Assembly (NCBI GenBank): GCA_019112765.1
Contig: DXIU01000108.1
Coordinates: forward strand, 1-38,553
Direction: 5' to 3'
Length of the DNA: 38,553 nucleotides
Source: Candidatus Mediterraneibacter norwichensis
Lineage (GTDB): Bacteria > Bacillota > Clostridia > Lachnospirales > Lachnospiraceae
Shown: piece by piece, positions 5,850 through 28,838 of the stretch
How the letters are laid out: each line of letters starts with the position of its first letter
Numbering within the stretch: the stretch's first letter is position 1
The notes under the pieces: generated by a model
Database searches by the model: none
The model's input: the letters and a program-made list of their open reading frames with translations, nothing else
Told to the model about the DNA's origin: nothing
Translations under genes and position numbers: made by a program

Positions 5850-5908
5850 CAGATATCAGAAAGAAGAAAACCGCCCGGGAGAAGGCGGAGGAGAGCAGGA
5901 ATAAAATT

Positions 5909-7675
5909 ATGAAATATGAACGGATAGAGAAGGCTGTTTTTCTGGAGCGGCCGAACCGGTTTATTGCGTATGCCATGATCAATGGAAAGAAAGAGACGAT
6001 TCATGTAAAAAATACAGGGCGCTGTGCGGAACTGCTGATTCCCGGAGCAGTAATCTATGTGCAGGAAAGCGGAAACCCCGCGCGGAAAACCAAATGGGAT
6101 CTGATTGCGGTGGAAAAGGGGGAACGGCTCATCAATATGGATTCCCAGATCCCGAACCAGGTGGTAAGAGAATGGATCGAACAGGGGAATTTCGCGCCGG
6201 ATGTGACCCTGATCAGGCCGGAGACTGTCTACGGTTCCTCCCGGTTCGACCTGTATGTGGAAGCGGGAGACAGAAAGATATTCATAGAAGTCAAAGGAGT
6301 GACGCTGGAAGAAGACGGAGTCTGCCGGTTCCCGGACGCGCCCAGCGACCGGGCGGTCAAGCATCTGGAAGAATTGATCCGTGCCGGGAAAGAAGGATAT
6401 GAGACCTGTGTATTTTTTGTCATTCAGATGAAGGATGTCCGGTATTTTACACCCAACACGGATACCCATCCTGCTTTTGCGGAAACGCTCGTTAAAGCAG
6501 CGGCGGCAGGGGTAAAGATTCTGGCGTATGACTGCGAGGTGGAAGCAGACAGCATTGCCATAGCAGATCCGGTGGATGTGGTTCTGGGGAGTCCCAGGCT
6601 GAAAGAGGCAGCGGAACCGCTGGTGGAATGGTTCCGGGAAAAGAAGAGAGATCTGCCCTGGCGGAAACGGATGAATGCCTACCGGGTATGGATCTCTGAG
6701 ATTATGCTCCAGCAGACCCGGGTGGAGGCTGTAAAGCCCTATTATGAACGGTTCCTGGAAGAGCTGCCGGATGTGAAATCTCTGGCGGAAGTGCCGGAAG
6801 AGAGGCTGCTGAAGCTCTGGGAAGGCCTTGGCTATTACAGCAGAGCACGGAACCTGAAGAAGGCCGCGCAGCAGATCATGGACGAATACGGGGGACGTTT
6901 TCCGGAATCATATGAAGAAATTCATTCTCTGAAAGGAATCGGAAATTATACGGCCGGAGCCATCAGCTCATTTGTCTACAACATTCCAAAACCGGCAGTG
7001 GACGGCAATGTCCTGAGGGTTGTGACGCGGCTTCTCGCGGATCCGGGGGATATCACAAAAGCCTCAGTGAAGAAAAAAATCGAGAGCCTGATTGAAGAAA
7101 TTATCCCCCGGAGGGCGGCAGGGGACTTTAATCAGAGTCTCATTGAGCTGGGCGCAGTTGTCTGTCTGCCCAATGGGGAGCCAAAATGCGGGGAATGTCC
7201 GGTCCGGCATCTGTGTCTTGCTTTTGAACAGGGAAACCCGAGAGCGTATCCGATCCGGCAGAAAGCCAGGCCGCGGAGGATTGAAGAACGGACTGTTTTT
7301 GTATTCTGTGACAGCCGGGCCGCGGCAATACAGAAGAGGCCGGACAGCGGACTTCTGGCAGGCATGTATGAATTTCCCGGCGTAACAGGGCATCTGAGGC
7401 AGGATGAAGCAGTAGAATACGGGAAGTCCCTGGGGCTGGTTCCGGTGCGGATCAGGAGCCTGGGAAATGCGAAACATATATTCAGCCATGTGGAGTGGCA
7501 TATGACAGGATACGAGATCCTGGTGGACGAGCTTGAGAAATGCATGCCGGAAAATATGATCTTCGCCGGCCGGGAGGAGCTGGAGTCAAAGTATCCGATG
7601 CCTTCAGCTTTTGAACCTTATCTGCGTGCGGCGGGACTGGAAAAGCGAAACACCGGCGGGAAAGACGCGTCATAG
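5909..7675 (+). CDS. SfsA nuclease domain fused to MutY A/G-specific adenine glycosylase
   Basis: A 588-residue two-domain protein read in one uninterrupted frame. Residues 1-226 are a full SfsA (sugar fermentation stimulation/DNA-RNA nuclease family) domain. It has the GRCAELL motif near the N-terminus and a nuclease-like set Asp114, Glu127 and Lys129 (RFDLYV...IEVKG). Residues 227-588 are a full MutY domain. Catalytic Glu264 lies in SEIMLQQT, the helix-hairpin-helix LKGIGNYTAGAI follows, and catalytic Asp365 is in AVDGNV; the 101-residue Glu-Asp spacing matches MutY. Four cysteines (C-x7-C-x2-C-x5-C) form the 4Fe-4S loop, and a NUDIX-like C-terminal recognition domain carries FSHVEWHM. MutY removes adenine opposite 8-oxoguanine. 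ATG 5909 follows AGCAGGA. No good internal start for a separate MutY is visible. Confidence 0.93.
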   Translation: MKYERIEKAVFLERPNRFIAYAMINGKKETIHVKNTGRCAELLIPGAVIYVQESGNPARKTKWDLIAVEKGERLINMDSQIPNQVVREWIEQGNFAPDVTLIRPETVYGSSRFDLYVEAGDRKIFIEVKGVTLEEDGVCRFPDAPSDRAVKHLEELIRAGKEGYETCVFFVIQMKDVRYFTPNTDTHPAFAETLVKAAAAGVKILAYDCEVEADSIAIADPVDVVLGSPRLKEAAEPLVEWFREKKRDLPWRKRMNAYRVWISEIMLQQTRVEAVKPYYERFLEELPDVKSLAEVPEERLLKLWEGLGYYSRARNLKKAAQQIMDEYGGRFPESYEEIHSLKGIGNYTAGAISSFVYNIPKPAVDGNVLRVVTRLLADPGDITKASVKKKIESLIEEIIPRRAAGDFNQSLIELGAVVCLPNGEPKCGECPVRHLCLAFEQGNPRAYPIRQKARPRRIEERTVFVFCDSRAAAIQKRPDSGLLAGMYEFPGVTGHLRQDEAVEYGKSLGLVPVRIRSLGNAKHIFSHVEWHMTGYEILVDELEKCMPENMIFAGREELESKYPMPSAFEPYLRAAGLEKRNTGGKDAS

Positions 7676-15704: not shown

Positions 15705-16535
15705 ATGAAGGAGAAAAAGAGTACAAACCGGATTCTGACCGCACTGCTCTGGCTGTTATGTATCTGCATGTTCCTCCCCATGGTTTTTATTATTATCAAT
15801 GCGTTTAAGCCTTTTGATCAGGTTGTAATGGATCCGCTGGCTCTGCCGGAGGTATGGAATCTGGACAATTTCAGGGAAGTGACCAAAACGGGAAATTACG
15901 TAAAAGTATTCGCCAATACAATTTATTTTGCTCTGCTGAGCGGAATAATCGTCATCGGCCTGGGATCAATGGCGGGATATAAGCTGGCCAGAATGAATAA
16001 CAGAACAGGCCGGATTACATCACTGGTATTTATGGTAGCTATGATGCTTCCGTTTCCTGTAATAATGATTCCGCTGGCTGTAGTAGCGTCTGATTTGCAT
16101 ATTTCGAACAATCTGACGCTGATATCTGTGCTGAACGCGGGATTTTCATGCTCACTGGCAGTTATTATGTATACGCAGGCAGTAAAATCCATTCCACGGG
16201 AACTGGATGAGTGTGCGCAGATTGACGGCTGCGGCGGATATCCCTTTTTTTTCCGGATCATATTTCCATTGCTGCGGCCCATAACAGGTACCGTTGCAGT
16301 GCTCTACTTTATCCGATACTGGAATGATCTGATGCTTCCGATGATTTTGATTTCTGATAAGGAACTGTATACGATTCCGCTGTCTCAGCTGGCGTTTTAC
16401 AATCAGTTCACGCAGAACAGATGGAATCTTCTGCTTGCGTCGGGGCTTATGGCTATTGTTCCGGTTATAATACTGTATCTGTTTGCCCAGAAAACAATTA
16501 TCAAAGGAATAGCCGCAGGTGCGGTAAAGGGGTAG
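15705..16535 (+). CDS. Sugar ABC transporter permease (MalG/UgpE-type)
   Basis: A 276-residue second permease subunit with six predicted helices. The conserved cytoplasmic loop reads PRELDECAQIDGCGGYPFFFRIIFPLLRPI; the usual EAA is ECA here. It heterodimerises with the permease encoded just upstream. ATG 15705 follows AGGAGG (15691-15696), and the stop codon is five bases from the GH127 start, so the operon is tightly packed. Confidence 0.93.
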   Translation: MKEKKSTNRILTALLWLLCICMFLPMVFIIINAFKPFDQVVMDPLALPEVWNLDNFREVTKTGNYVKVFANTIYFALLSGIIVIGLGSMAGYKLARMNNRTGRITSLVFMVAMMLPFPVIMIPLAVVASDLHISNNLTLISVLNAGFSCSLAVIMYTQAVKSIPRELDECAQIDGCGGYPFFFRIIFPLLRPITGTVAVLYFIRYWNDLMLPMILISDKELYTIPLSQLAFYNQFTQNRWNLLLASGLMAIVPVIILYLFAQKTIIKGIAAGAVKG

Positions 16536-16540
16536 AAACT

Positions 16541-18616
16541 ATGTACAAAGAAACAAGGATTAAAGATGTGAAGATTAAGGGAGGGCTGCTGTACGAAAAA
16601 AGAAAAGTGGCGGCAGAAAAAACAGTTCCGTATATAAAAAAAGCTCTGAATAATGAGATAGAAGGAATATGCCCAAGCGGAGCTTTTGAAAACTTCAAAG
16701 CGGCAGCCGGAAAGTCAGAGAAAAAGTTTTACGGACTGGTGTCCCAGGACAGTGATCTGTTCAAATGGATTGAAGCCGCATCTTTTGCGCTTCAGTTTGA
16801 GTACGATGAAAAAGAACGGGATATGAAAAGTACGGGAGGGGCGGAACATAATATGGCATTCCAGGAAGAAGCGGGATGCGGAGGGATCGGAGAGCAGATC
16901 AGAAGTGATCTTGATAGAGCTGTTTTACTGCTTGGTGAAGCACAGCAGAAAAACGGGTATCTGAATTCTTATTATATTTTAAACGGACTAAAAGACAGAT
17001 GGCATTATCTGAAAGAATCCTGCCAGCTCTACTGTGCCGGGCACCTCATGGAAGCGGCAGCGGCGGACTATGAAGTTACAGGTGAAACAGAGCTCCTGGA
17101 CATTGCGCGGAAATATGCGGATTGTATCGGACGGACCTTTGGAACGGAGAAGGGAAAAATACGTGGATATGACGGACACGCGGAAGTGGAGATAGGGCTG
17201 TATCGTCTGTATGAGGTTACCCGGATAAACCGGTACAGAAAGCTGGCTGATTATTTTGTGGAGGAGAGAGGAAAGCGGCCCTGCTTTTTTTCAACAGAAA
17301 AAAGGAATGAAGATGTATCGGATAATCTGGTATATGAACTGGAGGAAGCGGATTACAGACACTCTCAGTCACATATGCCCATCCGTGAACAGAAAGAAGC
17401 TGTGGGACATGCGGTAAAAGCTATGTATTTTTATACTTCAGCTGCAGAAAAGGCAAGATTGGATGAAGACGAAGCGCTTTTTCATACGCTGAAAATTCTG
17501 TGGAACAGTGTGACGAAAGAAAAGATGTATCTGACAGGAGCAATCGGAGCGTCCGAGTATGGTGAGAGCTTCAGTTATCCTTTTGATCTCCCTCCGGATC
17601 TGATGTATGGAGAAACCTGTGCGGCCATCGGGTTATTTCTTTTTGCCTACCGGATGCTTCTGTCAGAGGTGGATTCCTGCTATGGAGATGTGATGGAAAG
17701 GACTTTGTACAACAGTATTCTTGCCGGAATGTCTGAAAGCGGCACAGAGTTCTTTTATACCAATGCTCTGGAAATTGACCCGGAAAAATGTGAAAAAAGA
17801 AAAGACCATATGCATCTGCAGCCGGTACGGCAGCCCTGGTTTGACTGTCCCTGCTGTCCGCCTAACATCGCGCGGCTGCTGCTGAGTCTGAACAGGTATA
17901 TCTATACTGCAGATGAAGAATGTCTTAACATTCATCTTTTCATTGAGAGTATTCTTGCTGCAGAGGGATGGACGGCAGAAATGAAAACAGAATATCCTGA
18001 AAATGGAAATATAAAACTGAATGTTACAAAAACGACCAGAGGGCAGGGAAAGGTGAAAATCCGGGTTCCTCAATGGTGCCGGGAGATATCTTATAGTGCG
18101 GGAGGAGAACCTGTTTCACCTGAAGTGGAAAAGGGATATGCTGTATTTCCCGCAGGAGAAGGAGAGAGACTGGAGATTGATATATCCATGCCTATGGTTC
18201 CGCAAAAAGTCTATGCTGATATACGGGTGAAAGATCTGACAGGAAAAGCGGCGGTTATGCGTGGCCCTGTCGTATATTGTGCGGAAGAAGCGGATAACGG
18301 AGAACTTTCAGTACTGTTCTGGAAGGATCAGGGCCGGATGACCTGGAAAAAGGACCCGGCAGCCGGAACGCCTGATTCTGAGCAGATTACTGCAGAAGGG
18401 TGGCGCTGCAAATCGGACAGTGACGAACTGTATACTGCGCAGCCGCCCTGTTTTGAAAAAACGCAGATAACACTGATCCCATATTATCGCTGGAACAACA
18501 GAGGAAAAGGAGCTATGAGGGTATTTCTGAACACTCTGTTTGCGGCAGATAGAATGACAGGCTTTATGACAGAACACCAGGAGGAAAAAGATGAAAAAGA
18601 ACAGAGTGGAAATTGA
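16541..18616 (+). CDS. GH127 family glycoside hydrolase (beta-L-arabinofuranosidase type), copy 1
   Basis: A 691-residue protein without signal peptide, hence cytoplasmic. It belongs to GH127 (formerly DUF1680), whose characterised member HypBA1 releases beta-1,2-linked L-arabinofuranose using a zinc-bound cysteine nucleophile. The key residues are present: Glu342 in YGESF (acid/base, HypBA1 Glu322), Glu358 and Cys360 in GETC (zinc ligands, Glu338/Cys340), Cys438 in the nucleophile position and Cys439 (CPCCPPN, HypBA1 Cys417/418). The spacings agree with HypBA1. ATG 16541 follows AAAGGGG, and the upstream in-frame extension overlaps the permease. It overlaps the second GH127 gene by 26 bases. 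Specificity may differ from HypBA1. Confidence 0.92.
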   Translation: MYKETRIKDVKIKGGLLYEKRKVAAEKTVPYIKKALNNEIEGICPSGAFENFKAAAGKSEKKFYGLVSQDSDLFKWIEAASFALQFEYDEKERDMKSTGGAEHNMAFQEEAGCGGIGEQIRSDLDRAVLLLGEAQQKNGYLNSYYILNGLKDRWHYLKESCQLYCAGHLMEAAAADYEVTGETELLDIARKYADCIGRTFGTEKGKIRGYDGHAEVEIGLYRLYEVTRINRYRKLADYFVEERGKRPCFFSTEKRNEDVSDNLVYELEEADYRHSQSHMPIREQKEAVGHAVKAMYFYTSAAEKARLDEDEALFHTLKILWNSVTKEKMYLTGAIGASEYGESFSYPFDLPPDLMYGETCAAIGLFLFAYRMLLSEVDSCYGDVMERTLYNSILAGMSESGTEFFYTNALEIDPEKCEKRKDHMHLQPVRQPWFDCPCCPPNIARLLLSLNRYIYTADEECLNIHLFIESILAAEGWTAEMKTEYPENGNIKLNVTKTTRGQGKVKIRVPQWCREISYSAGGEPVSPEVEKGYAVFPAGEGERLEIDISMPMVPQKVYADIRVKDLTGKAAVMRGPVVYCAEEADNGELSVLFWKDQGRMTWKKDPAAGTPDSEQITAEGWRCKSDSDELYTAQPPCFEKTQITLIPYYRWNNRGKGAMRVFLNTLFAADRMTGFMTEHQEEKDEKEQSGN

Positions 18617-20579
18617 AGACTCTTTCTGGAGCAGCCGTATCAGACAAATGTGTGAAACTATTATTCCGTACCAGTACGCGGTCCTTAACGACCAGATTCC
18701 GGGAATACCCAGAAGCCATGCCATAGAAAATTTCCGGATAGCGGCCGGACTTTCGGAGGGAATGTACCAGGGGATGCTGTTCCAGGACAGCGATGTGGGG
18801 AAATGGATAGAAGCGGCGGCCTGGTCTCTCGGGATCAGAGGGAATCCGGAGATTGAAGAAAAGATTGATGGGCTGACGGAGATTTTAAAAAAGGCTCAGC
18901 AGGAGGATGGATATCTCAATTCCTATTACACATGTGTCCGGCCCGGCGAAAGGCTTACGAATATTGCGCACGGGCATGAAATGTACTGCGCGGGCCACCT
19001 GGTGGAGGCGGCAGTTGCATATGCGCAGGTTTCCGGGAAAACAGAACTGCTGGACATTATGGAAGACTGTATAGAATATTTTATGTCGAAAATCGGCCCG
19101 GAGAAAGAAAAACTTCACATATATCCGGGGCATCCGGAACTGGAGCTGGCTTTATACAAGTTGTACCGCTATACAAAAAAAGATAAATACCTGGAATTTA
19201 TGAAATACCTTTTGCTGGAGAGAGGAAAGCAGCCATCCTTCCTGCCGCAAGACCCGGGGTTTGGAGAACAGTACCACGATAAATGGTTTGGTCTTGAATA
19301 TCATCAGGCGCATCTTCCGGTTCTGGAGCAGAGAGAGGCGAAAGGACATGCAGTAAGAGCGATGTACCTTTATGCGGGACTTGCTGATCTGGCATATGAG
19401 ACAAAAGATCCGGAGATTACAGAGGCGCTTGAGACTTTGTGGGAAGATGTAACAGAACGAAAAATGTATGTTACCGGGGCTGTAGGGGCAGAGGAACATG
19501 GAGAAGCGTTCGGAGTACCGTACGATCTGCCGAATGACAGAGGATATGCAGAGACATGCGCGTCTATCGGTCTTATATTCTGGGCCAGAAGAATGTTAAA
19601 GTTAAGATTGGATTCCCGATATGCAGATGTAATGGAACTGGCACTGTATAATGGGGCGTTAAGTGGAATGTCTCTTGATGGAATGTCCTATTTCTATGTT
19701 AATCCGCTGATGGTTATTCCGGATCAGGCAGAAAACAGATATGACCTGCGTCATGTCAGGACGGAACGGGTGTCGTGGTTCGGCTGCGCGTGTTGTCCTC
19801 CGAATGCGGCCAGATTACTCATGTCGCTGCCGGACTATATCTGTGATTATGAGGATTATAAAAAAGAACTGACAGTTCATCTTTATATCTGCGGGAAAAT
19901 TTCGATAAGCGAGAATATATGGTTTGAGGTGTCCGGAGACTATATTGAGAGCGGAAAAGTAAAATTCAGATATTGCGGAAATCCGGAAGAGATGACTCTG
20001 CGATTGCGTCTTCCCGGGTGGAGCCGGAAGATCGGTATGCGGATGAATGGCAGTCCATATCATCCGGAAACAGAGTCCGGATATGCCCGGATTACAAAAA
20101 GGTGGACTCCGGGTGATGAGCTGGAACTGACATTTGAGGTAACCCCGTGTTTTATTTATGCAGATCCCAGAGTTGCAGCGGATGCCGGGCGGGCAGCGGT
20201 CAGGAGAGGTCCTGTGATCTACTGCCTGGAGCAGGAAGATAATGGGAAAAACCTGAATTCGGTTGTTGTGAAAGGCTTCTGCTCTGCTGAGGATTGTATG
20301 GAACAGCAGAACAATTCTCCGGAGGACAATAAACATCACTCATGGAATTCGCCGGACGGCGACGGCCGGAATGATGTCTTTCCCGGTAATTCCAATGCGA
20401 TGCCGGTACATACTGTGTATCTGTATGGCTACAGAGAAAAGACGGGATCTCCGGAAGGAAAGCTTTATTCAGTCAGAAAGCCGGTGAAAGAAAAAAGTAT
20501 ATTCAAGGCAGTGCCCTATCATATATGGGGAAATCGAGGGAAAGGAGAAATGCTGGTATGGATACGGAAAGGAGAGTAG
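18591..20579 (+). CDS. GH127 family glycoside hydrolase (beta-L-arabinofuranosidase type), copy 2
   Basis: A 662-residue cytoplasmic GH127 enzyme encoded directly after copy 1. Glu305 in HGEAF, Glu321 and Cys323 in AETC, and Cys401-Cys402 in CACCPPN keep the acid/base, zinc ligands and nucleophile, with the same 16-residue Glu-Glu spacing as copy 1. The two proteins align throughout (for example VSQDSDLFKWIEAA versus FQDSDVGKWIEAA) but are clearly diverged, so they probably act on different linkages or positions of the same glycan. It has a longer C-terminal region rich in Asn, Ser and Pro (about residues 560-620) before the final GNRGKGEM segment. ATG 18591 follows CAGGAGG. Confidence 0.92.
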   Translation: MKKNRVEIEDSFWSSRIRQMCETIIPYQYAVLNDQIPGIPRSHAIENFRIAAGLSEGMYQGMLFQDSDVGKWIEAAAWSLGIRGNPEIEEKIDGLTEILKKAQQEDGYLNSYYTCVRPGERLTNIAHGHEMYCAGHLVEAAVAYAQVSGKTELLDIMEDCIEYFMSKIGPEKEKLHIYPGHPELELALYKLYRYTKKDKYLEFMKYLLLERGKQPSFLPQDPGFGEQYHDKWFGLEYHQAHLPVLEQREAKGHAVRAMYLYAGLADLAYETKDPEITEALETLWEDVTERKMYVTGAVGAEEHGEAFGVPYDLPNDRGYAETCASIGLIFWARRMLKLRLDSRYADVMELALYNGALSGMSLDGMSYFYVNPLMVIPDQAENRYDLRHVRTERVSWFGCACCPPNAARLLMSLPDYICDYEDYKKELTVHLYICGKISISENIWFEVSGDYIESGKVKFRYCGNPEEMTLRLRLPGWSRKIGMRMNGSPYHPETESGYARITKRWTPGDELELTFEVTPCFIYADPRVAADAGRAAVRRGPVIYCLEQEDNGKNLNSVVVKGFCSAEDCMEQQNNSPEDNKHHSWNSPDGDGRNDVFPGNSNAMPVHTVYLYGYREKTGSPEGKLYSVRKPVKEKSIFKAVPYHIWGNRGKGEMLVWIRKGE

Positions 20580-20781: not shown

Positions 20782-21867
20782 ATGAGAAAAGTAATGCTTA
20801 CCGGGGATCGTCCTACGGGAAAACTTCATGTAGGCCATTATGTGGGTTCACTGAGACGGCGGGTTGAGCTTCAGAATACAGGAGACTTTGATGATATATT
20901 TATAATGATCGCGGATGCGCAGGCGCTGACGGATAATGCGGACAATCCGGAGAAAGTGCGCCAGAATATTATAGAAGTGGCACTGGATTATCTGGCCTGC
21001 GGCCTGGATCCGGCGAAGTCTACGCTGTTTATACAGTCTCAGGTTCCTGAGCTGTGCGAGCTGTCCTTTTATTACATGAATCTGGTTACCGTATCGAGAC
21101 TTCAGAGAAATCCAACGGTAAAATCAGAGATCCAGATGAGAAATTTTGAGGCCAGTATTCCGGTTGGATTCTTTACGTATCCCATCAGTCAGGCGGCGGA
21201 TATTACTGCATTTAAGGCAACTACGGTTCCGGTAGGAGAAGATCAGATGCCTATGCTGGAGCAGACAAGAGAGATTGTGCACAAGTTTAATTCTGTTTAT
21301 GGAGAGACGCTGGTTGATCCGAAGATTCTGCTTCCGGAAAATGAAGCGTGCATGCGTCTCCCGGGAATCGATGGGAAAGCGAAGATGAGCAAATCTCTGA
21401 ACAACTGCATCTACCTGTCGGAGGAACCGGAGGAGATTCAGAAGAAAGTGTTCAGCATGTTTACAGACCCGACCCATATCCGTATCGAAGATCCGGGCAA
21501 ACTGGAAGGCAACACCGTGTTTACGTATCTGGACGCGTTCTGCAGGCCGGAATATTTCCCGGAGTTTCTGCCGGAGTATAAAGATCTGGATGAACTGAAG
21601 GCTCATTATAAGAGAGGCGGCCTGGGAGATATGAAGGTAAAGCGGTTCCTGAATAATGTTCTGCAGGCGGAGCTGGAGCCGATCAGAAACCGGAGAAAAG
21701 AATTCCAGAAAGATATCCCGGCCATTTATGAAATCCTGAAAAAGGGAAGCGAGAAGGCTGAGGCTGTGGCCGCTGAGACGCTGAAAGACGTAAAGGCAGC
21801 TATGAAGATTAATTATTTTGACGATATGGATCTGATCAGAGAGCAGAGCGAAAAGTTTTCTGAATAG
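20782..21867 (+). CDS. trpS: Tryptophan--tRNA ligase, TrpRS-II-like
   Basis: A 361-residue class I aminoacyl-tRNA synthetase that charges tRNA-Trp. The HIGH motif reads LHVGH within [16 protein letters not shown] (about 8-23) and the KMSKS motif is at 201-205. Bacillus-type TrpRS instead has SGxxxLGNY here. The GDRPTG...[22 protein letters not shown] and [18 protein letters not shown] segments match the TrpRS-II group, known from Deinococcus, as far as I recall it. AGGAGG at 20764-20769 precedes ATG 20782 by 12 bases, slightly long. Whether this is the only TrpRS in the genome cannot be seen here. Confidence 0.94.
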
Positions 21868-22128: not shown

Positions 22129-22343
22129 ATGCACAAAAAAACAGGCCGGAACTGCAGGGTGAGCATTAATTAATTCTGCTAAAATGTACAATCTGGAGAA
22201 TAAGATTATTGTGTTGAAAAGGGACGTTTGCAGAAGCTGTCTGTACTCAGGGTTTCTGAACGCCTGGAAGGAAAGGAGGAAAAGCAGAAAACAGGAACGT
22301 AAAAAGGAAAGGGTAACATGTGTGTAAACAAGAAGGAGGAAAA

Positions 22344-25300
22344 ATGAGAATAGGAAAAAAACTGGGAACCGGAGCGCTGGCGTTTGCCGTGCTGTTTACG
22401 GGTGTGGCAGGTCTGCTCCCGGCGGATGTATTTGCAGCCCCGGATAGTTTTACGGGACAGTTATCGTCCGTGACAGACGCGACGGTTGACAGTAACAAAA
22501 AGAATGTTGTTCATGTACAGTTTAACGATGGCGAAGTTGCGGCAAAGATTACATTCCTGGAAGACGGTATCTTCCGCTACAACGTAGATCCTTCCGGCGA
22601 GTTCAGCGAGTATGCCGCGCCGAACAGTTCATCCCATGTGGCGACAATTCAGCAGCAGTCAGATGATTCGGATGAATACCGGAAACCGGAAGCGCAGGTA
22701 AATGATACGGGGGATACATTTGAAATTACAAATGGAACGGCGACAATTGTATTTGATAAGGACACGGCTCTGATGTCTGTAAAAAACGGCGGAGATATTG
22801 TGCTGGAGGAGACGGAGGCGCTGTCGCTCGGAAGAAGTTCTACAGTGCAGACACTTGCGGCCGCCGATAATGAGTACTTCTACGGAGGCGGAACCCAGAA
22901 CGGACGCTTTGCCCATAAGGGGGATACAATACAGATTGCCAATACAAACAACTGGGTAGACGGCGGCGTTTCTTCGCCGAACCCATTCTACTGGTCCACA
23001 GACGGATATGGTGTACTGCGCAATACTTTTAAACAGGGCACCTATGATTTTGAAAATACGCAGGCTGACACAGTGAAGACAACTCACAGTGAAAACGAGT
23101 TTGACGCGTATTATTTTATTGATTCAGCGCCGGCGGATATTCTGAATGATTACTTCAAGGTAACCGGAAATCCGGCGCTGCTTCCGGAATACGCGTTCTA
23201 TCTGGGACACCTGAACTGCTATAACCGTGACCTGTGGAATCCGTCGTCCACCGGCAGCGGCTGGACGCTGGAGGATGGAAATAAATATACAGAGACAGGC
23301 GGAAGCCCGGATTATAAACTCCCGGTTGACGATACCGGAAAAGTTCCCACAAGCGAAGGAACGCCGGAGTCTCTGAACGGAACTTCGCCGCTGAGTGACG
23401 CGGATGAAGCTTCCCTGTATAAATATTCCGCGCGGGCTGTGATTGACGGGCACAATGAGACGGACTTCCCGCTGGGATGGTTCCTGCCCAATGACGGATA
23501 CGGCTGCGGTTACGGACAGAACGGATACTATGTTAACTATCCGCTTGCCGCTACAAATGTGGGAAGTGAGGAGGCCATAGAGGCGTCGCGGCTGAATGTG
23601 GAAAATCTGGCTGAATTTACAGCATATGCCAATGCACGCGGAATTGACACAGGTCTTTGGACACAGAGCGGTCTTGATTTCGCGGGCTCAGAAACAGATT
23701 CCTACGGATATCACGGCCTGCAGACGCTGAGAGATTTTGAAAATGAAGTGAACATAGGCGGCATCACGTCTCTTAAGACCGATGTGGCGTGGGTCGGCTC
23801 CGGTTATTCCTTTGGCCTTAATGGTGTGAAAACCGGATATGACACTATTGCGGAAGCCGGCACGAGACCAAATGTGGTATCACTGGACGGCTGGGCAGGA
23901 ACACAGCGCTATGCAGGTATCTGGACCGGCGATCAGTCCGGCGGCGAATGGGAATACATACGTTTTCATATCCCTACCTATATCGGACAGTCCTTATCGG
24001 GAAATCCGAATATCGGAAGTGATATAGACGGCATCTATGCGGGAAGCGATCTGCTGGCGACCCGTGATTTCCAGTGGAAGTCCTTTACTCCTCTGATGCT
24101 GGATATGGACGGCTGGGGATCTATTCCGAAGAAACCTTACGGACACGGAGACGACTATGATGATATCATCCGCAATTATCTCAAATTAAAAGCGCAGATG
24201 ATGCCTTATATTTATACAATTGCAGAGGAAGCTACGGAAGGCAAACCGATGATCCGTGCCATGTTCCTGGAATTCCCGGACGATTCTTCCGCGGCATATA
24301 CAGAGGCTTCCCAGTATCAGTATATGTGGGGCGAAAATCTGCTGGTAGCGCCTGTCTACGAGGATGTGCAGGCAGACGCGGAAGGAAATGATGTGCGCAA
24401 CGGCATTTATCTGCCGGATGAGGAGCAGATCTGGATTGATTACTGGAGCGGACAGCAGTACCGGGGCGGACAGATCCTGAACAACTATGACGCGCCGGTA
24501 TGGAAAATGCCGCTGTTTGTGAAATCGGGCGCGATTATTCCTATGTATGAGGAGAATAATAACCCGGGAGAAATCACGGAAACAAATGAAAAAGGTCTCG
24601 ATAAGACAAAACGCATTATTGAATTCTGGCCGGACGGAGAAACAGATTTTGACCTCTATGAGGATGACGGAAGATCTGTAGACGTAACAGATGAAGAGGA
24701 AGTTTCCTACGGCGGAAGTGTTTCCACACATATTACATCAAAGGTAGATGAGACAGCCGGAACAGCGACACTGACGGCCGAAGCATCCGAGGGCTCCTAT
24801 GATGGCTATGACAGCAGCCGTCTTACGACATTTGTTGTAAATGTTTCTCAGAAGCCTGAGGCCCTTACGGCAATGAACGGCGATGAAACACTGACGCTGA
24901 AAGAAGCGGCTGATCTGGATGAATTTAATGCGGATACCGAAGGAAACATTTATTTCTACGACGAGACTCCGAACCTGAATAAGTACTCTCAGGGTGAGGG
25001 AGAGTTTGCGGATACGGAGATTACAACAACTCCGAAACTCTACGTGAGGTTCGCGAGAACAGACGTGGATACGAACGCCCAGACTCTGATTATTGAAGGG
25101 TTTGACAACAGCCAGGAACTGGATGCGGATGAGCTTAATACAAGCCTGCCGGTACCACAGCTTAAAGATCTTACAGAAGATGACATGACCCCTACCAGCA
25201 TCAACGTACAGTGGAATGCAGTGGAGGACGTCGATGTGACAGGATATGATGTGAGCGTAGACGGAGTGGTCAACACGATTCTTCCGAATACGGACGGAAC

Positions 25301-28300
25301 GGTTCCTGTATCATACCTCCATGAAAATCTGGAATATAATTCTTCTCATACTTATATGGTACGTGTGAGAACGGCAGAGGGCTATTCCGCGTGGAGCGAC
25401 GAGAAAACGTTTACTTCTCTGGAAGATCCCTGGAGAAATGTGCCTGATGTAACCGCGACATGGAGCGGGGAACTGTATAACAATCAGGGACCCGACCGGG
25501 CATGCGATCATGAACTTCAGACCGGTGATTCAGGCTTCCATTCCGACGGAAATGCGATTGGCGAGGAACTGGTCTATGACCTGGGTCAGGTTTACAGCCT
25601 GGACAAGCTGGAATATTATCCGAGAAAAGATCTGGGCAATGGAACGGTCAGCCGGATGGATATTTCTGTCAGCCTTGACGGCGTGCACTGGCAGCAGGTG
25701 AATGCAGATGACAATACGATAAGCTTCGGAACAGACAATGATGAAAATCCGGTAGCGTCGGTTGATCTGGAAGGATCCTGGCGCTATGTGAAGATGATCC
25801 CGCGGGCATCCGCAGGAGGATTCTTCTCCGCAAGGGAGATTATTGTCTATAAAGTGGACGGCACGAACGGCACGGTACTTGGAGATATGCCGGGTACGAG
25901 CGCGGGTGTGGACGACAATGACTATCAGACACTGAATACATACAAAGGAATAGACAGCACGGCGTCAACCTGGGGACAGATTGTAGATGTCAACCTGAAT
26001 GGAGTGTTTGATATCTATGATTACTCTTTCACCCTGACAGAACTGGACGGCGGAACGGAGCAGACAGGAACTGTCGGCGGCAATATCCTGATGCTTACGA
26101 ACAAAGAAACTGTGGATGAGGGCGAGGAGTTCACTATTGACCTGTACGGTGTTGATCTGGAAAACGTAAATGCATTTGGCGCCGTGATTCCGCTGGATAC
26201 AGAGAAATATGAGTTCGTGGGCGTGGAAGGATCCGCGTATGCGTCCGGTATGACAGATCTTTCGGTAATGAAGGAATATCTGACAATCAGTTTCGGAAAC
26301 CGCGGCGACAAGCCGCTGATCAACGGTTCTCATACGCTGGCGACGATTACGCTTCGGGCGCGTGAGGCAGGAGAAACACTGAAGCTTGCAGAGGCAATGC
26401 TGATCGGTCCGGACAACAGTCTGAAGATCTGTACGAATGACGCGGGAGAATTCCCGGAAGTTCCGCCGGCTGAGACAACGACGGAATATATGCAGAGTGA
26501 TTTTAATATCACGATGACAAATGATATGCTTCAGACGGATGAGGGCTCCAACGTTACGACATTTATACAGCAGAATTCTTATGACGGTCTGTTTAACGGA
26601 AACAGTGACAGCAGTGACCGGAGCTTTGAATTCAAGTGGGATACAGGCGCGGGAGTTCCCGATGAGGTAACACTTCCGGTTACCATCCATTTCACATTTG
26701 CCGGAGGCGCAAAACCGCTGTCAGCAGTGAATGTTTATGATTCCTACGCGAGATCCAACGGTTTTGTGACAAAGTACAGCGCTGTAGTTACATTTGAAGA
26801 CGACACCACTTATTCTACCGGGGAAACGGATGTCAGCAAAGTAGACAATGCGGTTATGAGCGTGGATGTGGCCGGCAATAATCCGGAAGGCAAAAACGTA
26901 AAACAGGTGGACTTTACAGTACTTGAATCTTCAACCGGAAACCAGGCGATGACACTGACGGAAGCGGAATTCTTTTACAATCAGTCCAATGTGGTGGAAG
27001 GAATTGAATTTAACGGTGTACCGTCGGAAATGTTTATCGGCGATATCACTGAGATCAGCGCGGCAGTTACACCGGAGGATGCTCCATACCTCTATTATGA
27101 CATTACAAGCAGCAATCCGGACAAAGTAGAAGTAATCCGTGTGGCAGACGGAAGCGGATTTAAGTTCTATCTGAAAGCAAAAGAAGCAACCGCGGAAGGC
27201 GAGACGGTTATTCTGATCGCGACCGCAGGCGCGAAAGACGCTGAGGGCGGCGACGTTACCGCGACAGCTGAGATTACAGTAAATGAAGGGGTCAATACGG
27301 CTGAACTTCAGGCTCTGATTGAGAAGTACAATGACCTTTCAAAAGAGGTTTATACAGAAGACAGTTACGATGCGTTCAAGACTGCTTTCGACGCTGCATC
27401 CGATCTGCTTCTGAGCGGAGAGTTTACGAAGAATGAAGTGGAGAACGCGGCGAAGATGCTTAGTGACGCGGCGGACGCTCTGGTATTCCGGCCGATTGAT
27501 GAGAATACGCTGATTAATACGTCTGCTGATTCCGGCATAACGGTCATTGATAAGAGCAGCGACTGTGTAGACAGCGGCGTGGATAACGGACTTGCTGAAA
27601 GAGTCCTTGATTATGATGAGAGCACATACTGGCATTCTACATGGATGGATGTGTCCCTTATGGGTATGCCTCAGTATCTGACCTTTGATCTTGGAAAGGA
27701 ATACATTTTATCAGATATTGCCTTCCTTCCGAGAGTGGGATCCAGCAATGGAGATATCTTCCAGGCTGAAATCCTTGTGGGAGAAACAGCAGACAGTCTG
27801 ACATCTGTCGGCATATTCGAGTTCGATCACAGCGAAAAGGAGCTTCTTGACAGAGAAGAGTGGAAACAGATTACATTCGCGCCGGTTGAAGGCCGTTATG
27901 TGAAAGTCAATGTAATCAGCGCAGGCGGCGGAACCAACGGCGCGGCACAGAACGACCAGTACGCAACCATGTCGGAAATCCGGTTCTATGGTACGCTGCC
28001 GGTTGACTACAGTGGTCTGCAGGCTCTTTATGATCAGTATAAGGATACTGAGAAAGGAAATTATACGGACATTACCTGGGCTGAATTCCAGAACGCGCTG
28101 AAAGACGCGGCGGATGTACTGGCAGATGAAACTGCGGTACAGGCTGATATCGACGCGGCAAAAGACGCGCTCCGGAAAGCATATGACGCGCTGGAGGAGA
28201 TTACAGTGAATAAGGCGGCGCTTCAGGCAGCGGTAGATTTATATCAGACAACAGAGCAGGGAAATTATACAGACGCAAGCTGGACTGCGTTCCAGGCCGC

Positions 28301-28838
28301 GCTGAAGGCCGCGCAGGATGTGCTGGCAGATGAAGATGCCGCGCAGACGGATGTGGACAAGGCGCTGGAAGATCTGAACGGCGCGTATGAGGCTCTGGAG
28401 GAAGAGAAAGATCCGGAGCCGGAACCGGTAAATAAAGATAAACTTCAGACAGTCGTGGAAGGTTATCAGGATATGGAACAGGGCAGCTATACAGATGAGA
28501 GCTGGGTAGCGTTCCAGGATGCGCTGAAGGCCGCGCAGGATGTGCTGACGGATGAAAATGCCGCGCAGGAAGATGTGGATGCCGCGTTGAATGCATTAAA
28601 TGCCGCATTTGCCGGACTGAAAGAAACTTCCAGGCCGGCCGATCCGAATCTGCCGGGAACAGGCGGCGGCACAGATACAGGCGGCGGAGCGGATAAGGAC
28701 AGCGGCGGCAGCGGAGCGGACTCCGGAGACGCAGCAGCGGACACAGGAGACAGAACCAATGCGGCTGTACCGGCTGCAATGCTGATATTCTCCGGCGCAG
28801 TGATTCTCTTTGCTGCAAAGGCGCGGAAAAGACGGTAA
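22344..28838 (+). CDS. Giant secreted multidomain GH31 glycosidase, surface anchored
   Basis: A 2164-residue extracellular enzyme. The signal peptide ends near residue 31 (ADVFA). A GH31 N-terminal and catalytic region covers about 60-800, with nucleophile Asp480 in KTDVAW and acid/base Asp530 in WTGDQSGG. Later modules, approximate: FN3 935-1026; F5/8C (CBM32-like) 1029-1172; dockerin-like Ca-binding pair 1178-1236; cohesin-like 1244-1373; a beta-rich module 1379-1549; Ig-like 1550-1648; FIVAR 1650-1719; F5/8C 1721-1886; three FIVAR 1889-2094. A Gly/Ser-rich linker, an ADTGDRTN sorting-like motif, a hydrophobic helix and an AKARKRR tail end it. The catalytic sequence and FN3/CBM32 context resemble GH31 alpha-N-acetylgalactosaminidases acting on mucin O-glycans, which is inference from memory. 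ATG 22344 follows AAGGAGG. Confidence 0.9.
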   Translation: MRIGKKLGTGALAFAVLFTGVAGLLPADVFAAPDSFTGQLSSVTDATVDSNKKNVVHVQFNDGEVAAKITFLEDGIFRYNVDPSGEFSEYAAPNSSSHVATIQQQSDDSDEYRKPEAQVNDTGDTFEITNGTATIVFDKDTALMSVKNGGDIVLEETEALSLGRSSTVQTLAAADNEYFYGGGTQNGRFAHKGDTIQIANTNNWVDGGVSSPNPFYWSTDGYGVLRNTFKQGTYDFENTQADTVKTTHSENEFDAYYFIDSAPADILNDYFKVTGNPALLPEYAFYLGHLNCYNRDLWNPSSTGSGWTLEDGNKYTETGGSPDYKLPVDDTGKVPTSEGTPESLNGTSPLSDADEASLYKYSARAVIDGHNETDFPLGWFLPNDGYGCGYGQNGYYVNYPLAATNVGSEEAIEASRLNVENLAEFTAYANARGIDTGLWTQSGLDFAGSETDSYGYHGLQTLRDFENEVNIGGITSLKTDVAWVGSGYSFGLNGVKTGYDTIAEAGTRPNVVSLDGWAGTQRYAGIWTGDQSGGEWEYIRFHIPTYIGQSLSGNPNIGSDIDGIYAGSDLLATRDFQWKSFTPLMLDMDGWGSIPKKPYGHGDDYDDIIRNYLKLKAQMMPYIYTIAEEATEGKPMIRAMFLEFPDDSSAAYTEASQYQYMWGENLLVAPVYEDVQADAEGNDVRNGIYLPDEEQIWIDYWSGQQYRGGQILNNYDAPVWKMPLFVKSGAIIPMYEENNNPGEITETNEKGLDKTKRIIEFWPDGETDFDLYEDDGRSVDVTDEEEVSYGGSVSTHITSKVDETAGTATLTAEASEGSYDGYDSSRLTTFVVNVSQKPEALTAMNGDETLTLKEAADLDEFNADTEGNIYFYDETPNLNKYSQGEGEFADTEITTTPKLYVRFARTDVDTNAQTLIIEGFDNSQELDADELNTSLPVPQLKDLTEDDMTPTSINVQWNAVEDVDVTGYDVSVDGVVNTILPNTDGTVPVSYLHENLEYNSSHTYMVRVRTAEGYSAWSDEKTFTSLEDPWRNVPDVTATWSGELYNNQGPDRACDHELQTGDSGFHSDGNAIGEELVYDLGQVYSLDKLEYYPRKDLGNGTVSRMDISVSLDGVHWQQVNADDNTISFGTDNDENPVASVDLEGSWRYVKMIPRASAGGFFSAREIIVYKVDGTNGTVLGDMPGTSAGVDDNDYQTLNTYKGIDSTASTWGQIVDVNLNGVFDIYDYSFTLTELDGGTEQTGTVGGNILMLTNKETVDEGEEFTIDLYGVDLENVNAFGAVIPLDTEKYEFVGVEGSAYASGMTDLSVMKEYLTISFGNRGDKPLINGSHTLATITLRAREAGETLKLAEAMLIGPDNSLKICTNDAGEFPEVPPAETTTEYMQSDFNITMTNDMLQTDEGSNVTTFIQQNSYDGLFNGNSDSSDRSFEFKWDTGAGVPDEVTLPVTIHFTFAGGAKPLSAVNVYDSYARSNGFVTKYSAVVTFEDDTTYSTGETDVSKVDNAVMSVDVAGNNPEGKNVKQVDFTVLESSTGNQAMTLTEAEFFYNQSNVVEGIEFNGVPSEMFIGDITEISAAVTPEDAPYLYYDITSSNPDKVEVIRVADGSGFKFYLKAKEATAEGETVILIATAGAKDAEGGDVTATAEITVNEGVNTAELQALIEKYNDLSKEVYTEDSYDAFKTAFDAASDLLLSGEFTKNEVENAAKMLSDAADALVFRPIDENTLINTSADSGITVIDKSSDCVDSGVDNGLAERVLDYDESTYWHSTWMDVSLMGMPQYLTFDLGKEYILSDIAFLPRVGSSNGDIFQAEILVGETADSLTSVGIFEFDHSEKELLDREEWKQITFAPVEGRYVKVNVISAGGGTNGAAQNDQYATMSEIRFYGTLPVDYSGLQALYDQYKDTEKGNYTDITWAEFQNALKDAADVLADETAVQADIDAAKDALRKAYDALEEITVNKAALQAAVDLYQTTEQGNYTDASWTAFQAALKAAQDVLADEDAAQTDVDKALEDLNGAYEALEEEKDPEPEPVNKDKLQTVVEGYQDMEQGSYTDESWVAFQDALKAAQDVLTDENAAQEDVDAALNALNAAFAGLKETSRPADPNLPGTGGGTDTGGGADKDSGGSGADSGDAAADTGDRTNAAVPAAMLIFSGAVILFAAKARKRR

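Follow-up and report, generated by a model that had tools for sequence, protein, structure and literature searches.

A conserved and probably recurrent fusion of SfsA to the adenine glycosylase MutY in Candidatus Mediterraneibacter norwichensis and other Lachnospiraceae

Introduction

SfsA takes its name from an old sugar-fermentation phenotype. A PD-(D/E)XK nuclease identity has been predicted for it and non-specific DNA binding has been reported for the E. coli protein (both in the available part of PMC1189080), and the literature accessible to our search, in part as extracts, yielded neither an assay of SfsA nuclease activity nor a settled SfsA function. An open reading frame of Candidatus Mediterraneibacter norwichensis in which SfsA runs directly into the base-excision-repair enzyme MutY raises two questions, namely whether the join is natural and whether it places SfsA in DNA repair. 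Here, we describe this frame within the window (the whole stretch of DNA analysed, 38,553 nucleotides of contig DXIU01000108.1, assembly GCA_019112765.1), together with its relatives in the genus, family, class and phylum. A literature search, mostly outside subscription journals, found no description of an SfsA-MutY fusion among the papers listed. We conclude that the fusion is a real, conserved and probably recurrent join of two known families.

Results

The gene runs for 588 codons from ATG 5909 to TAG 7675 with zero internal stops (Table 1), and its coordinates, frame and domains agree with the first-pass annotation. A complete SfsA (residues 1-226) is followed directly, in the same frame, by a complete MutY (about 229-573). 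The same annotation had seen no internal start. When codons 195-270 were scanned, in-frame ATG or GTG was found at codons 211, 222, 224, 239, 255 and 266 (no TTG), and these candidates match an AGGAGG box at no more than 4 of 6 bases, compared with 5 of 6 for ATG 5909; judged by AGGAGG match, which is weak evidence, none is a good start. An AlphaFold2 model of the whole fusion protein (mean pLDDT 89.3, pTM 0.81) has MutY-DNA complexes and the SfsA structures 4dap and 4dav among its structural matches. The fusion is the sole SfsA match in its genome, where the only other HhH-GPD protein best matches endonuclease III, just under the cut-off (201.8 versus 211.7 bits). Elsewhere in the window, two GH127 genes (16421-18616 and 18591-20579) lie near a gene for a 2172-aa multidomain protein with GH31, F5/8 type C, fn3 and FIVAR domains (22320-28838, forward strand), and a class I W/Y tRNA synthetase gene (20782-21867, forward strand) lies between the GH127 and GH31 genes.

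Table 1. Coordinates of the fused gene and its parts in the window, and of other SfsA fusions in their own loci
Feature	Location	Strand	Basis
SfsA-MutY fused gene, 588 aa	5909..7675	+	Open frame, Pfam and NCBIfam matches
Putative Shine-Dalgarno-like purine-rich stretch, 5' of ATG 5909	5887..5899	+	Best 6-mer 5/6 to AGGAGG
SfsA half, residues 1-226: OB domain 12-77, PD-(D/E)XK domain 80-214, D114/E127/K129	5909..6586	+	Pfam, NCBIfam, alignment, structure match to 4dap and 4dav
Join, about residues 227-230	6587..6598	+	4 residues in 64/85 unique fused frames
MutY catalytic part, about 236-450: E264, D365, Fe-S cysteines 419/427/430/436	6614..7258	+	Pfam, NCBIfam, alignment; MutY-DNA structure match
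MutY C-terminal NUDIX-like domain, about 455-573	7271..7627	+	NUDIX_4 at 462-573
SfsA-HAD fusion	L283:449-1900		
SfsA-GNAT fusion	L284:1055-2257		
SfsA-DUF123 fusions	L287:1262-2461; L288:1167-2387; L289:1100-2446		

Within the first half, Pfam places SfsA_N at 12-77 and the SfsA RE domain at 80-214, and the NCBIfam equivalog for sfsA (TIGR00230) is passed over residues 1-224 (171.3 versus a cut-off of 126.45 bits). The D-(X)n-E-X-K nuclease motif corresponds to D114, E127 and K129. Residues 1-226 modelled alone (pLDDT 92.5) give an OB plus PD-(D/E)XK fold that aligns with 4dap and 4dav over 224-225 residues; sequence comparison with the PDB likewise returned the SfsA entries 4da2/4dav and 4dap for this half. 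One of the best structural matches, 4dav, is a solved SfsA-DNA complex. Structures of EndoMS/NucS (5gke, 2vld) match weakly (TM 0.31, rmsd about 13), and Vsr, the template named in PMC1189080, is absent among the 50 structural matches listed, an absence that is uninformative.

Pfam identifies HhH-GPD (262-396) and NUDIX_4 (462-573) in the second half, the NCBIfam equivalog for mutY (TIGR01084) is passed over residues 236-493 (322.6 versus 286.5 bits), and MutY entries of the PDB match residues 233-535. In the PDB sequence comparison E264 and D365 line up with MutY structures, and we take these two to be the MutY catalytic residues. By these sequence criteria, the MutY half is a member of the adenine glycosylase family, with activity on 8-oxoG:A predicted. 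The nine residues that had been described as kept in the window protein (Asp114, Glu127, Lys129, Glu264, Asp365 and the four Fe-S cysteines C419, C427, C430 and C436) are each present in all 85 unique fused frames. A special Fe-S spacing was considered as a trait of the fusion and rejected, as 92 of the 97 family-sample MutY rows have the first two cluster cysteines 7 residues apart, irrespective of fusion.

At the join, SfsA homology stops at L226 and MutY homology begins at about 229-231. The model is confident here (pLDDT 90-96 in blocks around the join), with the last SfsA strand (215-221) running into the first MutY helix (229-245). The earlier description of the join as having essentially no linker holds for the window protein and for the majority of fused frames (Table 1), and fails for others, whose joins reach 50 residues. 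Within the family sample, join length is 4 throughout the main group except for one of 18 (genome G092), and elsewhere is 2, 2, 3, 5, 19 and, in genome G170, 50. Fused proteins 63-68% alike to the window protein (loci L047, L048, L054 and L059) have joins of 23-36, and because length varies even among such close fused relatives, it is weakened as proof of separate fusions and counts as weak evidence for separate origins.

An essentially full-span match was found in 35 of 37 genomes of the same genus, own included, with the match in G019 split over two contigs. SfsA and MutY share one frame in 30 of 30 fetched congeneric loci (L002-L031), and both halves are in the same frame in G001 and G018. 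Neither half was found in G006, an 83% complete congener. G008 (locus L295) is missing the SfsA half and has MutY in three pieces of frame with its own ATG upstream, preceded, like the fused gene of the window, by an ABC transporter gene (neighbour read by eye); this may reflect decay or a sequence error. The best named match (93%) is from Candidatus Mediterraneibacter merdigallinarum. Genome records were also scanned once with patterns derived from the window protein, which yielded a non-random sample of 70 loci, comprising 44 with a fused frame, 3 with neighbouring sfsA and mutY, 17 with MutY alone and 6 with SfsA alone. Fused records include the complete genome AP025573.1 and the isolates Merdimonas faecis BR31, Faecalicatena contorta ET55 and Dorea phocaeensis. 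Among plasmids, 109 records matched and none covered 80% of the query. The source assembly is a draft in 137 contigs, of which the window is one, so misassembly or a missed stop could in principle have produced the frame; against this, the join is common to the 35 congeners and to other records, among them the complete genome and the BR31 isolate. Because independent genomes carry the same join, an artefact is refuted for the fusion as such, its probability being practically nil, and the frame is natural, as the first-pass annotation had proposed.

The fusion occurs in many Lachnospiraceae. Among 200 genomes of the family, one per genus, SfsA is present in 93, being fused to MutY in 26, adjacent to it in 11, and unlinked or with no MutY found, as far as draft contigs show, in 56. 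Three of the 26 fused genomes are incomplete at the locus, which sits at a contig end in G173 and G223, while the MutY frame of G065 is broken. All 11 adjacent genomes have sfsA immediately ahead of mutY, co-directional and in the order seen in the fusion, so that the two genes are also neighbours in some unfused relatives. Candidate mutY starts in unfused adjacent pairs leave gaps of 1 to about 190 bases; in loci L065-L067, the sfsA TAG abuts an in-frame mutY ATG, and the stop codon is the only difference from a fusion. Judged by frame length, no fused SfsA-MutY frame besides our own is present in the class (157 genomes) or phylum (159 genomes) samples; 13 longer frames were fetched from these, of which 5 were domain-scanned and have other partners and 8 were read by eye. 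The class sample has SfsA in 80 genomes and MutY in 40, and adjacency was seen in 0 of the 24 genomes with both besides our own, a count limited by draft contig ends (in G291, for example, mutY starts 229 bases from the contig end). SfsA is not confined to these groups, being found in 7 of 14 control genomes of bacteria and archaea, including E. coli, Thermotoga, Haloferax and Sulfolobus.

In the family, SfsA and MutY co-occur to a modest degree, and in the class their association is non-significant. Family genomes with both number 81, with SfsA only 12, with MutY only 66 and with neither 41 (odds ratio 4.2; counted by hand, 4 of the 81 being deduced from second matches in unlisted rows, and kinship ignored), and the odds ratio falls to 2.3 (p 0.035) without the 37 linked genomes. 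The class odds ratio is 1.9 (p 0.10, kinship ignored).

Trees were used to follow the history of the join. The fused state needs 7 changes on the MutY tree (95 rows) and 4 on the SfsA tree (91 rows), both with many weak branches. In a concatenated tree (45 rows), 17 fused genomes including our own form one group (88/96), five other fused and two adjacent-gene genomes form a second (97/97), and G170 stands apart. On this tree the fused state needs 4 changes, a single fused clade is rejected (AU p 0.00098, for a group chosen knowing the earlier trees and with row G125 on a long branch), and a single-change history appears in 0% of 200 bootstrap trees. Because the concatenated tree rejects one fused clade, fusion of the sfsA-mutY pair has probably been repeated; one fusion event followed by fissions would likewise be compatible with the tree.

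Both halves are under similar purifying selection. Since at least 18% of dS values are saturated in each part, pN/pS is given as a ratio of raw proportions, with medians across 30 congeneric frames of 0.213 (SfsA), 0.207 (MutY catalytic part), 0.304 (NUDIX part) and 0.366 (join); the join is the least constrained part and reaches 0.645 family-wide. Outside the fusion, the SfsA motif is kept in 11 of 11 adjacent, 38 of 38 separate and 16 of 17 proteins from genomes without a fetched MutY. Fusion has thus not relaxed the motif, but SfsA proteins unlinked to MutY retain it just as well, which makes its invariance among fused frames unremarkable.

AP endonucleases and MutM were searched for in those 23 fused genomes, out of 26, that have complete frames. 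All 23 have Nfo and 20 of them have Xth as well, which leaves a missing AP endonuclease unsupported as the reason for the fusion. MutM, the usual 8-oxoG partner, is often missing from fused genomes (20 of 23, our own among them). Matches to the MutM family (PF01149) came from 3 of the 23 fused genomes, compared with 11 of 71 other family genomes with MutY (4 strong and 7 weak or partial, all over the cut-off). Loss of MutM is therefore likewise unsupported as the reason: MutM is about as rare where MutY is not fused, and the fusion is not tied to its loss.

SfsA was also found joined to other partners in one frame, namely a HAD hydrolase domain in one genome, a GNAT acetyltransferase domain in another, and DUF123 (PF01986), which we take to be COG1833, in three phylum-sample genomes of two families (Table 1). 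According to the available part of PMC1564403, two archaea have the GIY-YIG family COG1833 joined to endonuclease III, with a base excision repair role suggested, and for that reason the SfsA-DUF123 fusions are in keeping with a repair theme. The HAD and GNAT partners call for caution about a repair reading.

Discussion

We consider the fusion as a candidate bifunctional base-excision-repair protein in which SfsA would process DNA at or near the MutY product, an interpretation that we judge about evenly balanced between right and wrong. The MutY half would remove A opposite 8-oxoG and leave an abasic site, tethered SfsA, through its OB and PD-(D/E)XK domains, would bind the same stretch of DNA and could cut or trim near that site, and the prepared nick or gap would then be handed to polymerase and ligase. 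A role for SfsA in repair had been suggested in the first-pass annotation, with processing of the strand after adenine removal as its example. Recurrent linkage, a structure match to a DNA complex and two intact catalytic sets make the repair role plausible; counting against it are the frequent occurrence of SfsA without MutY, with the motif kept there, the modest co-occurrence of the two genes, the lack of adjacency in the class sample (0 of 24, as far as draft contigs show), the G008 genome without the SfsA half, and the SfsA-HAD and SfsA-GNAT fusions. Strand processing in its simplest form, with SfsA supplying the incision, is weakened by the presence of both AP endonucleases: because Nfo and Xth are there, SfsA would not be the sole source of AP incision, and may instead contribute a further or alternative cut, or retain the intermediate and channel it onward.

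The fusion could also be neutral, or matter at the level of expression: the two genes would be chance neighbours whose intervening stop codons were lost, with the halves working independently and SfsA doing an unrelated job. The gene pairs of L065-L067, each a single stop codon away from a fusion, are what such a history would leave, and the weak constraint on the join, the HAD and GNAT partners and the weak co-occurrence of unlinked genes all agree with it, whereas the recurrence of the same partner in the same order (26 of the 93 SfsA family genomes fused and 11 adjacent) and the failure of fused rows to form one clade do not; we see in this neutral origin a real but lesser chance. Alternatively, SfsA may serve MutY only as a DNA-binding or targeting module, its nuclease site unused. 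The OB domain and the non-specific DNA binding of E. coli SfsA (available part of PMC1189080) would suit such a module, yet D114, E127 and K129 are invariant in all 85 fused frames and the RE domain is as constrained as the MutY catalytic part, which makes pure targeting quite improbable.

The bifunctional repair interpretation has a broader form, in which SfsA in general is a base-excision-repair nuclease that acts after the glycosylase, cutting a second time or resecting the strand, so that here a single protein would both remove the lesion and process the strand. We regard this extension as rather unlikely; if true, it would give a role to conserved SfsA, placed in a pathway by its fusion to MutY. 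Its repeated covalent joining to a single, defined repair enzyme opens SfsA to a direct and cheap biochemical test, for which the fusion proteins, with both active sites apparently intact, would be natural material.

Compared with known systems, SfsA of family TIGR00230 (PF03749 and PF17746; E. coli 4dap, P. furiosus 4dav) has been solved as chains of 231-234 residues consisting of SfsA alone, whereas the fusion protein, 588 residues long, carries it as the N-terminal part. The window protein shares with MutY (TIGR01084; bacterial MutY-DNA structures including 4yoq and 8dw0) the catalytic Glu and Asp, the Fe-S cysteines and the C-terminal NUDIX-like domain, and differs from it in having a 226-residue SfsA in front. 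The COG1833-endonuclease III proteins MJ0613 and MMP0538, as described in the available part of PMC1564403, resemble SfsA-MutY in combining a nuclease domain with an HhH-GPD glycosylase, but have another nuclease fold, another glycosylase, and the glycosylase at the N-terminus.
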